Source of the DNA: a virus
Length of the DNA stretch: 37,283 bases
Virus record (IMG/VR): IMGVR_UViG_3300049432_000202
Location: 1-37,283 of that record
Direction: 5' to 3' (one strand)
The first letter of the stretch is position 1. Every line of letters begins with the position of its first letter. The notes under the pieces are model-generated. The model was not told where the DNA came from. It was given only the letters and a program-made list of their open reading frames with translations, and ran no database searches. Positions 19,532 through 29,912 of this stretch are shown in pieces. The translations under genes were made by a program, and so were the position numbers.

Positions 19532-19651
19532 CACACGCTCCTTCCATCGGGCCTGCCGATGACGATGGAGATCACGAACGCGGTGAGTCTCGGAGTGAAC
19601 GTTGTGCAATGTACGACGCGACGCGCGACGCGTCTCGTGTTTCGGACGCGA

Positions 19652-19681
19652 AGAGACCCCGCACCGGGTAGCGGGGTCTCT
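19652..19681. terminator. Terminator-like hairpin upstream of the scaffold gene
   Basis: Arms AGAGACCCCGC and GCGGGGTCTCT make an 11-bp perfect stem with an 8-base loop. The flanking CGGACGCGAA and arm are almost the same as at the operon-end terminator (1942-1975). On the minus strand only a short T/C tail follows. It stands about 120 bases before the scaffold start, so it could stop packaging-module transcripts or act as an attenuator before capsid genes. Confidence 0.65.
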
Positions 19682-23795: not shown

Positions 23796-23984
23796 GTGCC
23801 AGAAGAGAACGACAACCGGGCCATCGGGAATCTCCTCGATGACACCCGCAAAGCGCTACTGATAGAGATCGAAAAGACGGTGAAGGGCAGAGGCCCGTTT
23901 GCCGCCAACGTCCTGCGGGACTACGCGGAGGCATGGGCCTGGTGCTCGTCCCCGTCACAACATCACGGAGGGTCGGCGGACTAG
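23796..23984 (+). CDS. 62-residue protein encoded against the operon direction
   Basis: The product has 62 residues with a helical centre (DTRKALLIEIEKTVKG) and ANVLRDYAEAWAWCSSPSQH near the end; the AEAWAW...P-x-Q-x-H-G-G end resembles small proteins of unknown function in actinobacteria and their phages. GTG at 23796 follows AAGGGGG by 8 bases. Its TAG (23982-23984) shares CTAG with the stop of the large terminase on the other strand, a perfect tail-to-tail fit. It is the only well-supported + gene inside the leftward run. Codon use is like its neighbours. It could be expressed from the divergent region at 23690-23790; a role in lysogeny or regulation is possible. Confidence 0.75.
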   Translation: MPEENDNRAIGNLLDDTRKALLIEIEKTVKGRGPFAANVLRDYAEAWAWCSSPSQHHGGSAD

Positions 23985-25279
23985 GCCGCTTCTTCTTCGT
24001 CAGCGACCCACGGCTTCCACACCCGCCACGTTCCCTGCACGAGGTAGCGGAGCGTGTCGGGGCCGTGGTCGTCGCGCTTGATCGGAGCGTCTTCGCCCTT
24101 CTTCTGTTTGGTCTCGTCCCACGCGTAACCGGGCATCTCTTCGATGAGGCCGGTGCAACTATCGTGAACGAGGACCCTGCGCGCGGCCAGTAGGGATGAC
24201 GTGTTGCGGATCCCGTCGAGGACCGCGTTGTCGGCCGACCACACACGCTGAAACCCGTCGACGTGCAGTTGCCGGATGAAGCTCGCCGCGCTCGGGTCGA
24301 CGATGATGTTCGACAGCCCCGCCGAGACCACCGTCCCGGGCTTGCCCGATGCCGCCGGCTGCTTGATGAGTTCGGGCATCTCTGCTCGGAGCCACGACAC
24401 GAGGGCGTCGGAGTATTCCTTGTCGGTCTTCTGTCGGTTCCCGGGTGCCTGTGAATCCCATCGCCACTCGCGCGCGACGAGGAGATGGTCAAACGGCTCG
24501 GAGACGTGCAGCATGAGTAGCGCGACGAAGGGCGCCGAGGTCCCGTAGTCGATGCCGAGCCACGCTTGCCGGACCGCGGAGATCGGTGGCAACGCCGGCA
24601 CGACGTGGGTCTCCGACCACATGTCGTAGATCGCACCCTCGGCCAGCACCCACAGCCCGTCGATGTAGCGGCGGTACCACAGGGTGCCGGGCCCGTACTC
24701 GAGCTTCAGGGAATTCTTGTACTGAGCGGTCAGGTGCGGGTTGTCGTCGAGCACGAAGTGGAAGACGTTGAGGTCGAGCTCGTGGGCCCGGTCGATGAAC
24801 TTCTTCTTCAGCCAGTGATACGGCGAGTCGGGGTTGGTCGTGGCGAAGATGCGAGCGCCGGGGACCGAGCACCGCGACAGCATCATGTTCCAGAACGACT
24901 CGGGCGCGAGTGACGCCTCGTCGATGTAGGCGCCGGCGTACGTCCCTCCACGGATCTTCTCTTCGGCTTGCTCCGAGGACGCTCCTCGAACGTGGACGAG
25001 TCGACCGAGGAGGTAGAGCTCGCCCGACCCCTTCACGTAGCGACAGCGCTTCTTCCCGAGCCACGTCTGCAGGACGTCGATGATGTTTGCCTTCACCGTA
25101 CGCTCGGTGCGACCGACGAGGAGCAGCGGTCCGGGTGGCGCGTTGCGGACGAAGACGAGGAACGCTACCAGTGAGGCCACGGTCTTCGACGATCGAACCG
25201 AGCCTTCCCACAGGTTGATGCGGGCGTTCGAGCGCGCGACCGAACGAGCGGCTTTCCCCTTCAGGGGGATGAGGTTCAC
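23981..25279 (-). CDS. terL: Terminase large subunit
   Basis: The product has 432 residues, the ATPase and nuclease motor that packages DNA through the portal. ATPase: Walker A GSVRSSKT (26-33), Walker B AYIDEAS with Asp120-Glu121, and FATTNPDSP as the coupling motif (about 145-153). Nuclease: LGIDYGTS at about 241, IIVDPSAASF (about 323) and DHGPDTLRY at the end, giving three acidic positions as in RNase H-like terminases of the Terminase_3/PBSX type. GTG at 25279 forms a GTGA overlap with the ParB-like gene. Its stop shares CTAG with the opposing gene. Its similarity group suggests headful or cos packaging cannot be told from here. Confidence 0.96.
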   Translation of the reverse strand: MNLIPLKGKAARSVARSNARINLWEGSVRSSKTVASLVAFLVFVRNAPPGPLLLVGRTERTVKANIIDVLQTWLGKKRCRYVKGSGELYLLGRLVHVRGASSEQAEEKIRGGTYAGAYIDEASLAPESFWNMMLSRCSVPGARIFATTNPDSPYHWLKKKFIDRAHELDLNVFHFVLDDNPHLTAQYKNSLKLEYGPGTLWYRRYIDGLWVLAEGAIYDMWSETHVVPALPPISAVRQAWLGIDYGTSAPFVALLMLHVSEPFDHLLVAREWRWDSQAPGNRQKTDKEYSDALVSWLRAEMPELIKQPAASGKPGTVVSAGLSNIIVDPSAASFIRQLHVDGFQRVWSADNAVLDGIRNTSSLLAARRVLVHDSCTGLIEEMPGYAWDETKQKKGEDAPIKRDDHGPDTLRYLVQGTWRVWKPWVADEEEAA

Positions 25280-26121
25280 GCGAGCTTCGAGTGAAGGCGC
25301 TCGTGGGCCCCGCAGTAATCCGAGCTGTTGAGCCGGGACAGGATCGAGATGCAGCCCGGGTGCTTACAGGTCCGCTTCTGCACCCGGATCTCGCCCGTCG
25401 ACTCGGCGTCGCCGGTGAGGGCATTCAGCGCCCGCCGGAGCCGTTCGAGACGCTTCGCAACGTCGTTGTCGTGCAACGGGACGGAGCCACCCTCGAGGAT
25501 GCGGATGAGCTTGTCGGCGTACATGATCGTGAAGCGCGCCTGCGGTGGCCGGCTCGCGCGGTCCTTGCCCCGCTCACGAGCCCGCTCGGCCCTCACGTAC
25601 TCGTTCGCCTCGGCCATCGTCATCTCGCCGCGGTGCAGCTTCTTCTGCATCGCCTTCGACAGCGACAGGTAAGAGATCCGGGTCGAGACGTAGTAGTCGT
25701 TCTTCCCGAGCAGCTCCGCGACCTCGACCTGGGTGAGGCCCTCGTCGACCAGCCGCTGGCACGCGCGGCCTTCTTCGATCGGCGAGAGATGTTCACGGTG
25801 GACGTTCTCCGCGAGCATAGCGGCGAGTCGATCGGCATCGGTCTCGAACTGACGCACCGTACAGGGCACCTTCTTCAGCCCGGCCTCTCGTGAGGCAGCG
25901 AGACGGCGATGGCCGCAGATCAACCGGAACGACGACTTGCCGGCCTGCTCGACGACGAGAGGCTCGAGGAGACCGATGCGGCGGATGGACTCGGCGAGCT
26001 CATCGACCTCGGTCGCCTCGATCCGCATGTTCTCCCCGGACAGGAAGATGGCGGCGATCGGGATGTACCGGAGGGGCACTGCCGATTTCTCGACCTCAGA
26101 TGAGGCGGCGCGGACGGTCAT
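25276..26121 (-). CDS. ParB/Spo0J-like DNA-binding protein next to terminase
   Basis: The product has 281 residues. The ParB N-terminal domain is clear: MRIEATEVDELAESIRRIGL, LEPLVVEQ, FRLICGHRRLAASREAGLKK, then AAMLAENVHREHLSPIEEGR. The helix-turn-helix follows (LTQVEVAELLGKNDYYVSTR). The C-terminus has a Cys/His set (TCKHPGC ... YCGAHERLH) that could bind zinc. CTPase-type ParB motifs (GHRR, ENxxRE) are present, with NVHRE in place of NLQRE. ATG at 26121 lies 6 bases after AAGGAG. No ParA partner is in the window, so plasmid-like partition is not supported. It may bind phage DNA for packaging or regulate transcription. Confidence 0.88.
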   Translation of the reverse strand: MTVRAASSEVEKSAVPLRYIPIAAIFLSGENMRIEATEVDELAESIRRIGLLEPLVVEQAGKSSFRLICGHRRLAASREAGLKKVPCTVRQFETDADRLAAMLAENVHREHLSPIEEGRACQRLVDEGLTQVEVAELLGKNDYYVSTRISYLSLSKAMQKKLHRGEMTMAEANEYVRAERARERGKDRASRPPQARFTIMYADKLIRILEGGSVPLHDNDVAKRLERLRRALNALTGDAESTGEIRVQKRTCKHPGCISILSRLNSSDYCGAHERLHSKLA

Positions 26122-26176: not shown

Positions 26177-26647
26177 TCACGACGCGCCGCCGGCCATCGA
26201 GTCGAGCCACTCATCAACCCGCGACAGGTCCTCGCCCCCACCTTGGTGCGACTCGATGAGGACGTAGCCGTGGAGACAGCCGTTGGCGCGGAACATGATG
26301 TGGCGCTTGTCGGCGAAGGTCGGCTCGTCCATCTCGTGCTTCGCGAGCTCGCCGTCCGACAGGATCTTGAAGATGTTGGCCCTCTTGTGCAGCTCGTCCA
26401 TCGATGTGTGGAACTCCTCGAGCAGGCGCGCCTTGGCCTCTTCGAGCTTGCGAGCGTTGTCGGCGGCCCGGGCCTCGGTGGCTTTCTTCGTCTGCGACCG
26501 GTCGAACTCGACACCGATGCCGCGCGCGATCTTCGTGATCGTCGAGACGCTTCGAGAGAAGTCCCGGGCGATCTCGTTGCGGGGTTTCCCCGTGCGGATC
26601 TCCGCTTCGATGCGGGCCCGTTCGTCGTCAGATAGACGGGGTGGCGT
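26177..26647 (-). CDS. terS: Terminase small subunit with an apparent ACG start codon
   Basis: The product has 156 residues. The N-terminal helix-turn-helix (RARIEAEIRTGKPRNEIARD, then FSRSVSTITKIARG) is followed by a charged coiled coil and a C-terminal block FADKRHIMFRANGCLHGYVL ... GGGEDLSRVDEWLDSMAGG. I recognise that block from HTH-type small terminases of actinophages. The frame is open from 26671 but has no ATG, GTG or TTG before codon 83. The perfect AGGAGG at 26661-26656 lies 8 bases before ACG at 26647, which would give (M)PPRLSDDERAR. An ATG at 26401 would remove the DNA-binding half. Either ACG is used or one base is in error. It sits directly before the ParB-like and large terminase genes. 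Confidence 0.8.
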   Translation of the reverse strand, partial: TPPRLSDDERARIEAEIRTGKPRNEIARDFSRSVSTITKIARGIGVEFDRSQTKKATEARAADNARKLEEAKARLLEEFHTSMDELHKRANIFKILSDGELAKHEMDEPTFADKRHIMFRANGCLHGYVLIESHQGGGEDLSRVDEWLDSMAGGAS

Positions 26648-26746
26648 GGTTCGGTCCTCCTCCGGTCCTGCCGGTTAAAGGCACCGAACGCGTGTGCCTG
26701 CTACGACGAGGAGGTTACGACGCGCGTCTAGCTTCGAGTCGGAGGG
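26648..26746 (-). promoter_or_regulatory. Short gene-free region before the packaging genes
   Basis: It holds the AGGAGG ribosome site at 26656-26661, an inverted repeat AGGCAC / GTGCCT (26679-26684, 26694-26699, 9-base loop) and a perfect palindrome GACGCGCGTC (26719-26728). No convincing promoter boxes were found. The inverted repeat lies just upstream of the small-terminase ribosome site and may be an operator or a terminase recognition site. Confidence 0.35.
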
Positions 26747-27453: not shown

Positions 27454-27756
27454 TCACCGCAGAGGGGTCAGTTCCCGGTTGTACTCGGCGAGCAACTCAT
27501 CGTCGGCGGGCTTCCCCTGTCGCCGGCGCTTCTCGATCCTCTTCCGGAGGGCCAGACCGTCGTCGGTGATGTGGGCGATCGGGAAGACCTGACGGCAATA
27601 GGGGCACTGCATGTACTGGACGACGCCGACCGGGTCGAGGTCTCCGAAAGTGAGCTTGAGGGTCGGGTTCGCCTGCACGACCACGGTCTTCTTCTCGCGC
27701 ATCTTCGCGACGAAGGTCCGGCCGCATCCGTTGTCGCCGTCACAGGTGACCTTCAC
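27454..27756 (-). CDS. Small zinc-ribbon protein
   Basis: The product has 100 residues. Cys pairs: CDGDNGC near the start (residues about 5-11) and CPYC at about 52-55, with strands between (KTVVVQANPTLKLTF, VGVVQYMQ); this gives a complete zinc ribbon. The last 35 residues form a basic/acidic helix (LRKRIEKRRRQGKPADDELL). GTG at 27756 forms a GTGA overlap with the methyltransferase stop. A nucleic-acid-binding or transcription-related role is plausible; the family is not identified. Confidence 0.75.
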   Translation of the reverse strand: MKVTCDGDNGCGRTFVAKMREKKTVVVQANPTLKLTFGDLDPVGVVQYMQCPYCRQVFPIAHITDDGLALRKRIEKRRRQGKPADDELLAEYNRELTPLR

Positions 27757-29105
27757 AGCGCCATCCTCTCTTGCCGGTCTCGCCACGTGCGCTCGATCGC
27801 CTTGCGGGCGTGACCTGACTCGGCGCATCGCCACCTTGCCAACTTCGAGTAGTCGGCGCTCAGGTCGACCGAGATCCCCGTTCGCCCCAGCGCGTCGGCG
27901 ACCAGAGCTGTCGTCCCGGTCCCGCCGAACGGGTCGACCACGACACCAGGCGAGGAGCTCGGCGGCGTCCATCCGTCGAAGTGGTACTCGCGTCGCGGAC
28001 CGACGCGTTCATATTCGCCAGCTTTGTTCGAGTAAGAGCCTTGCGGCTTGCCGGCACCTATGGGGTCATACGGACGCCGGCGACTCTTCCCGGACGGTGG
28101 GTGATCGGTAAACGGGGTGCACTCGCACACGGCACCGCCGGCAAGGCTTCGGCGACCCTGTCCACAGCTATCGCACACAGCGAGCGGCGACCATCCAAGG
28201 ATCAATCGTCGCGGCCATTCCGTGGGGAACGCTGCGAAGTGATCGATACCGAGATGCTCAGGAACTCGGAGAGGTTCAGTCGCAATCGTCCAGACCGACG
28301 GTGGGAGGGCACCGAGTTCGTGACGCATCTGGTCACGCTCAACCTGTTGGGGGTTCATGCCGTCCGGGTACGCCTCGCGAGATCCCCCGACCGGCGACCG
28401 ATGTGGCTGAGTGCGAACCATCGTTGCGACCGAGTGCTCGACTCGGATGTCATCGGTCGAAGAGAAGTAGTGAGGCTCTTTCGTGAAGTGGAACCACTGC
28501 TCGTGGGATCGGCGGACGCGATCCTTCACGGACTCGGGGAGGCCGTTCGGTTTCGACCAAATCATCTCGGCGCGCAGGATGAGCCCAAGCTCGTCGATGC
28601 AGCCAAGCGCATAACGCCACGGGAGCCCCATCAACGACTTCGTCCGTGCCCCACCGATCGTCGCCTTGTTGTAAGCGTCCGGGGCGTTTCGTCTGGATGC
28701 GTCCCTCTGCGCCGCGCGTCGTCCGGCTCCGCCTCCACCGGCGAAGCTCCGCGCTTCAGAGGAGTGCGAGTACTGCGGGCCCGCTAGCGTTGAGCCGTTC
28801 CGCTTCGAAGACGTCGCCCCGAGGTTCGAGTTGTTGTGCCCTCCACTGCCGGCGTACTTGTCCCCGAGGTTCACGAAGATCGAGCCCGACCTCTTCAACA
28901 CACGCATCATCTCTTCGGTGCAGGTCAGAAGGGCATCTAGGAACTCGCTCGGTGTGAGTTCGGAGCCGATCTGGTCGTCGTAGTGCTCACCGTCGTCTTG
29001 GTAGCTACGGAGAGCGAAGTAGGGCGGGGATGTGACGATGAGATCAACGGACTCGTCGGGAAGCGGAAGGGCTCGAGCGTCCCCTTGGAGAACAACAGCA
29101 GTCAC
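27753..29105 (-). CDS. DNA methyltransferase, beta class (TSPPY)
   Basis: The product has 450 residues and is predicted to methylate adenine N6 or cytosine N4 of phage DNA, probably to escape host restriction. Motif IV TSPPYF lies at residues 25-30, and motif I VVDPFGGTGTTALVAD lies near 395, so the order IV then I marks the beta class. A target-recognition region sits between, with a low-complexity Gly/Arg/Ala patch (FAGGGGAGRRAAQRD) and a Cys cluster (CDSCGQGRR ... CEC) that may bind zinc. GTG at 29105 forms a GTGA overlap. No restriction endonuclease partner is evident; the adjacent HNH protein is the only nuclease nearby. The recognition sequence cannot be inferred. Confidence 0.9.
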   Translation of the reverse strand: MTAVVLQGDARALPLPDESVDLIVTSPPYFALRSYQDDGEHYDDQIGSELTPSEFLDALLTCTEEMMRVLKRSGSIFVNLGDKYAGSGGHNNSNLGATSSKRNGSTLAGPQYSHSSEARSFAGGGGAGRRAAQRDASRRNAPDAYNKATIGGARTKSLMGLPWRYALGCIDELGLILRAEMIWSKPNGLPESVKDRVRRSHEQWFHFTKEPHYFSSTDDIRVEHSVATMVRTQPHRSPVGGSREAYPDGMNPQQVERDQMRHELGALPPSVWTIATEPLRVPEHLGIDHFAAFPTEWPRRLILGWSPLAVCDSCGQGRRSLAGGAVCECTPFTDHPPSGKSRRRPYDPIGAGKPQGSYSNKAGEYERVGPRREYHFDGWTPPSSSPGVVVDPFGGTGTTALVADALGRTGISVDLSADYSKLARWRCAESGHARKAIERTWRDRQERMAL

Positions 29106-29230
29106 CCGGCGCCCTCGTCCCACGTGAACGCCTCGCATCCGCAGCCCTCGACCGAGCAGCGCCACGGTCCCTGACCGATGCGATCGTTGTGATCGTGGTT
29201 CGCATGAGTGCACGTACAGAAGAAGGTCAC
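29102..29230 (-). CDS. 42-residue Cys/His-rich protein
   Basis: The product has 42 residues, with CTCTHANHDHND near the start and CSVEGCGCEAF near the end: five Cys and three His fit one or two zinc sites. GTG at 29230 forms a GTGA overlap with the HNH gene; an upstream in-frame ATG lies inside that gene. The stop overlaps the methyltransferase start as GTGA. No family name is known to me. Its location between nuclease and methyltransferase suggests a linked role, which is inference. Confidence 0.6.
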   Translation of the reverse strand: MTFFCTCTHANHDHNDRIGQGPWRCSVEGCGCEAFTWDEGAG

Positions 29231-29643
29231 GAGGCGCCCGTCCATTCGGGATTCGACTCGAGCTTCCGGTGACACGGCTTGCAGACGAGCTCCAGGTTGC
29301 GCGGGTCGTCGACACCGAAGTTCTTGCCGCCGCGGTAGCCCTTGCCGTGCGACCGCTTGTCTTCGTGGTGCAGATCGAGCCCGGCCCATGCCGAGTCGAA
29401 GGTGGGGAAGACCTTCGGGCACCGCGAGCATCCAACGCCCTCGAGCAGTTCGAGATCCGTTGAGATGCGCTGCGCCTTGATGCCGGCGAGGAACGCTTCA
29501 CGCTTCGCCTGGGTGACCGACTGCGTCTTGATCGGCCTCCGGTGCTTCTTCACTTGATGACGAGGCACCACGGCGCGGTCACGCTTCGGAGTCCGGTTGT
29601 CGTGACCGGCGACGAAGTCGGCCATCATCTCGGGGTTCGCCAT
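29227..29643 (-). CDS. HNH endonuclease
   Basis: The product has 138 residues. The HNH core: CSRCPKVF (first Cys pair), LDLHHEDKRSHGKGYRGGKN with the catalytic His pair, then DDPRNLELVCKPCHRKLES with the Asn/His and second Cys pair. A basic N-terminal half (RAVVPRHQVKKHRRPIK) could bind DNA. HNH proteins of this size often assist large terminase cleavage, but they are then beside terminase. This one is 4 kb upstream and next to a methyltransferase. ATG at 29643 overlaps the upstream stop as TGATG. Alternatives are homing or host-DNA nicking. Confidence 0.9.
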   Translation of the reverse strand: MANPEMMADFVAGHDNRTPKRDRAVVPRHQVKKHRRPIKTQSVTQAKREAFLAGIKAQRISTDLELLEGVGCSRCPKVFPTFDSAWAGLDLHHEDKRSHGKGYRGGKNFGVDDPRNLELVCKPCHRKLESNPEWTGAS

Positions 29644-29912
29644 CACAGACGCTCCGAGCTGACGACGAGGACGGGGCGCGAAGCTATCGGCGCACCGTGG
29701 CCGTGAACGGGGCACCACGCCACGAAGCCGGCGCCACCGCAGTCCTCACACTCCGACCACTCCCCCGGGGCGTACGCGAGCGGATCCTCTTCGTGAAGGT
29801 CTCGGCCGCCCTCACCACCGCACCCGGTGCAGTCCTCGAAATCGAGGTCGCGGTGGCAGTACCCGCAGATCGGGTTGTTGGCGTGAGCCCCAAAGCGGAC
29901 CGGGCTAGACAA
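29643..29912 (-). CDS. DnaJ-like zinc-finger protein
   Basis: The product has 89 residues. Three Cys motifs: CGYCHRDLDFEDCTGCGGEG, CEDCGGAGF and WCPVHGHG. Two CxxCxGxG-type knuckles resemble the DnaJ central domain, with an extra Cys/His end. TTG at 29912 follows GGGG by about 6 bases and overlaps the upstream stop by 8 bases; no ATG exists. It is similar in type to the gene at 22925-23173. The function is not assigned. Confidence 0.75.
   Translation of the reverse strand: MSSPVRFGAHANNPICGYCHRDLDFEDCTGCGGEGGRDLHEEDPLAYAPGEWSECEDCGGAGFVAWCPVHGHGAPIASRPVLVVSSERL

Follow-up and report, generated by a model that had tools for sequence, protein, structure and literature searches.

A probable small terminase gene with ACG at its family's start position in a probably temperate, actinophage-like virus

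The virus record IMGVR_UViG_3300049432_000202, analysed here over its whole length of 37,283 bases (the window), probably comes from a temperate, actinophage-like virus and carries an ordinary packaging gene that adds a member to an established family and is odd only in its start codon. The codon at which this small terminase (TerS) gene should begin is ACG, placed behind a perfect Shine-Dalgarno sequence, and weak but real initiation at this ACG is slightly favoured over a mutation or an error. We infer that the base is real, that ACG initiates and that the product functions as TerS, while the identity of the gene and its start site, at 26647 or very near, can be taken as almost certain. If ACG is used, a phage gene would here start naturally at ACG, and standard callers, which recognise no starts but ATG, GTG and TTG, would keep less than half of its length. 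If it is not used, the case still shows how metagenome annotation can miss the DNA-binding half of a packaging protein because of one start-codon base. Coordinates are collected in Table 1.

Table 1. Features of the TerS region and the adjacent packaging genes in the window
Feature	Position	Strand	Basis or remark
TerS (PHROG 5536) coding region from ACG	26177..26647	-	frame open, matches family, start agrees with relatives
In-frame TAA closing the TerS frame upstream	26675..26677	-	
Shine-Dalgarno AGGAGG	26656..26661	-	8 nt from ACG
ACG codon at the family's start-codon position	26645..26647	-	alignment with relatives
First canonical in-frame ATG	26399..26401	-	74-aa product without helix-turn-helix
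Helix-turn-helix	26519..26629	-	model helices 7-18, 23-30, 34-43; Pfam HTH_38
Hairpin GTTCGGT...ACCGAAC (GTTCGGTGCCTTT...AGGAGGACCGAAC), Shine-Dalgarno in 3' arm	26649..26689	-	prediction, -21.1 kcal/mol
Gene for a ParB-like protein, between TerS and TerL	25276..26121	-	
Large terminase (TerL) gene	23981..25279	-	phrog_2

The minus-strand frame 26671-26177 is open throughout, and translation from ACG yields a product of 156 aa followed by the stop TGA (26179-26177). ATG, GTG and TTG are absent from the TerS frame before 26401, and the ATG there lies 82 codons after the ACG. A preliminary description of this DNA had correctly reported an open frame with a gap in canonical starts, but the gap counted from 26671 is 90 codons and not 80. 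Its placement of AGGAGG 8 nt before the ACG was exact: the motif lies inside GGAGGAGG, which ends at 26656, and is followed by ACCGAACC (8 nt) and then by ACG and the codons CCA CCC CGT CTA TCT GAC GAC GAA CGG. Third-position GC of the frame is 87%, like that of other genes in the window, and the rest of the gene contains no internal stop or frame damage. When every AGGAGG followed by 4-9 nt and an open frame of at least 60 codons in the window was counted, the start slot held ATG four times, TTG three times and ACG once, with one AGG as the only other near-cognate codon; thus, the AGGAGG-ACG arrangement is more than chance. Moreover, the spacing of 8 nt recurs at three ATG frames on the same strand (15475, 14837 and 9833), and the major capsid gene (18699, minus strand) and another structural-region gene (8597, minus strand) seem to begin with TTG behind a perfect AGGAGG, so that weak starts with strong ribosome sites do occur in this genome.

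An alignment to related small terminases, which the preliminary description had proposed as a check, bore out its start site. The starts of relatives mostly align with the ACG or fall within ~2 codons of it. The N-termini themselves line up (MPPRIPDDKR in locus L046, VPPRIPDTTR in L053 and MPPLHWTPDDE in Gordonia phage TinyDot, against (T)PPRLSDDER in the window). Because the relatives' starts align at this point, and because a start at ATG 26401 would delete the helix-turn-helix, we place the start at 26647 or near it; a gene caller beginning at that ATG does lose the DNA-binding half, as had been foreseen. The 5' end could be read in 127 distinct relatives; their start codon is ATG in 84, GTG in 39 and TTG in 4, and a non-canonical start, ACG or other, occurs in none of them. 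A further relative, locus L114, looked like an exception but has a GTG candidate start slightly further upstream.

The protein matches the PHROG 5536 profile over residues 9-127 (E 2.5e-23), and all 29 aligned members match this profile too. PHROG 5536 has no named function; annotations of its members in Streptomyces and Gordonia phages describe helix-turn-helix proteins whose genes directly precede the terminase. The Pfam HTH_38 match is above the curated cut-off, and the family's invariant residues are kept in the N-terminal helix-turn-helix. Of 154 related loci in which TerL could be read, 142 have the TerS gene within -100 to 200 nt of TerL; in the window one ParB-like gene separates the two, an insertion that most relatives do not have (ParB matches were found only in loci L024 and L179). 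An AlphaFold2 model of the ACG-started protein as a monomer (mean pLDDT 91.9) contains three short helices and a helix of 35 residues, together with a beta hairpin and a second long helix; its architecture is a helix-turn-helix with a long helical hairpin, predicted at high confidence from the ACG onward. In BFVD its best fold matches, with E as low as 4.5e-8, were helix-turn-helix proteins of actinophages, while a search of PDB structures gave no confident full-length match, and the TerS proteins of G20c and P74-26 matched weakly, at Z 6.1-6.3, a level that unrelated helical proteins reached as well. Thus gene order and architecture, rather than a direct test, argue strongly that the protein is very probably a small terminase, and the earlier identification agrees with family membership, position before TerL and fold model alike.

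The record begins with the ATG of an integrase gene at base 1 and ends with the GTG of a MarR-like gene at its last base (37283). Such ends at gene boundaries would fit a trimmed provirus, suggesting that the record is a temperate prophage. The core genes checked (TerL, portal, major capsid and minor head genes) are all intact, and the record is therefore without general decay. No tRNA or tmRNA was found in the 37,283-base window, and so no phage tRNA that could decode ACG as an initiator; a search of the window for RNA families gave no match. A terminator-like hairpin, GACCCCGC...GCGGGGTC followed by TCTT, is present at 19650-19680 on the minus strand, between the minor head gene and the next gene. 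Elsewhere, the DNA methylase frame 27756-29501 (minus strand) has ~200 residues extra inside its domain compared with the profile, and an overlapping HNH-endonuclease match lies close by at 29230-29718.

In our preferred reading, the codon at 26647 was probably ATG in an ancestor and is now ACG; the strong Shine-Dalgarno 8 nt upstream would set the initiator tRNA on ACG, and the full-length protein fMet-PPRLSDDERAR... would be produced at a low level. That ACG is truly present in the DNA is likely. That it initiates enough protein for packaging is possible but slightly doubtful, and the combined reading, a real ACG still used at low efficiency as the TerS start, is tentative. In its favour are the PHROG and Pfam matches, the relatives' starts on or near this codon, the confident model from the ACG onward, the strong, well-placed AGGAGG at the spacing of other ATG frames, the clean frame with its GC-rich third positions and conserved helix-turn-helix residues, the intact core genes, and the TTG starts with strong Shine-Dalgarno sequences elsewhere in the genome. 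Against it are the uniformly canonical starts of the relatives, the single transition that separates ACG from ATG, as expected of a mutation or an error, and the prophage-like record, in which an inactive late gene would survive. In an E. coli reporter test, initiation at ACG was low but non-zero, in a group at 0.1-1.5% of ATG (PMC6925171). In the open-access literature searched, we found no gene of a bacterium or phage for which initiation at ACG had been proven.

The predicted hairpin over the Shine-Dalgarno would lower expression further. Equal stability is reached by 0.44% of the 41-nt stretches of the genome, and a hairpin this stable at the TerS start by 1 of 123 relatives, figures that describe a post-hoc observation on one sequence. 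With its Shine-Dalgarno sequestered in this stable predicted stem, ACG would drive very little expression. The hairpin could serve regulatory or translational control, or it could be a DNA-level element, for example a packaging or TerS-binding site upstream of terS. That an essential packaging gene naturally starts at ACG while the predicted hairpin holds TerS very low until it is opened seems very unlikely to us. The preliminary description had gone further and proposed ACG as a selected low start that sets the TerS/TerL ratio, and this proposal found no support: none of the 127 relatives uses such a start, the TerL start GTG 25279 has no Shine-Dalgarno of its own, and a prophage-like record could simply keep a damaged start. 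A TerS ring has more subunits than the TerL motor, so that selection for very low TerS is an unattractive idea.

A damaged start is the first alternative to weak initiation. The ATG would have undergone a real T-to-C mutation, in the prophage or in part of the population, so that TerS is not made usefully and the lysogen is packaging-defective or impaired. We consider this somewhat unlikely, yet it has real weight because late genes escape selection in a lysogen and a damaged start would be tolerated there. The integrase and MarR-like boundaries, like those of a trimmed provirus, and the absence of ACG from all relatives agree with it, and the predicted burial of the Shine-Dalgarno would weaken initiation at ACG still more. 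Set against this, the other core genes checked are all intact, and neither stops nor frame damage occur in the rest of TerS.

The base might instead be a consensus error of the metagenome assembly, with ATG as the true codon and an entirely ordinary gene, which is unlikely. One base separates ACG from the codon used by most relatives, and the base is seen in one assembly only: viral contigs searched for near-identical DNA at the start of and inside the TerS gene contained no second copy and no close strain. A short-pattern scan of bacterial genome contigs carrying TerS and TerL likewise returned no relatives. On the other side, the core genes are without frame damage, which bounds substitution errors only weakly, and at the error rates usual for a consensus, an error hitting exactly this base would be a priori improbable. 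A start elsewhere is hardly credible, since ATG 26401, the first canonical in-frame start with AGGAG 12 nt upstream, would cost the protein the helix-turn-helix and half of the long helix, both of which relatives keep, at a position where the closest relative has no Met, and GTG 26683, which would need a frameshift, lacks an evident Shine-Dalgarno, opens a different frame, which runs to TGA at 26629, and does not fit the family; both candidates were rejected.

Compared with known systems, the gene shares family, start position, similar length and the order TerS then TerL with the PHROG 5536 proteins of Streptomyces phages Eastland, Austintatious and Alderaan and of Gordonia phage TinyDot. These four start with GTG or ATG, whereas the window has ACG together with a ParB-like gene between TerS and TerL. 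The closest relative found, TerS of IMG/VR contig 3300049432_000211 (L009), is 53% identical over the whole protein and likewise has extra genes between TerS and TerL; its GTG start lies six codons upstream of the aligned codon, at the very first codon of the contig, which therefore offers no upstream region for comparison. The small terminases of G20c and P74-26 have a helix-turn-helix followed by a helical oligomerisation hairpin, as in the window model (VIA-align Z ~6), a match that, with Foldseek E-values of 0.4-0.6 and structural alignments at 10-17% identity, is suggestive only.
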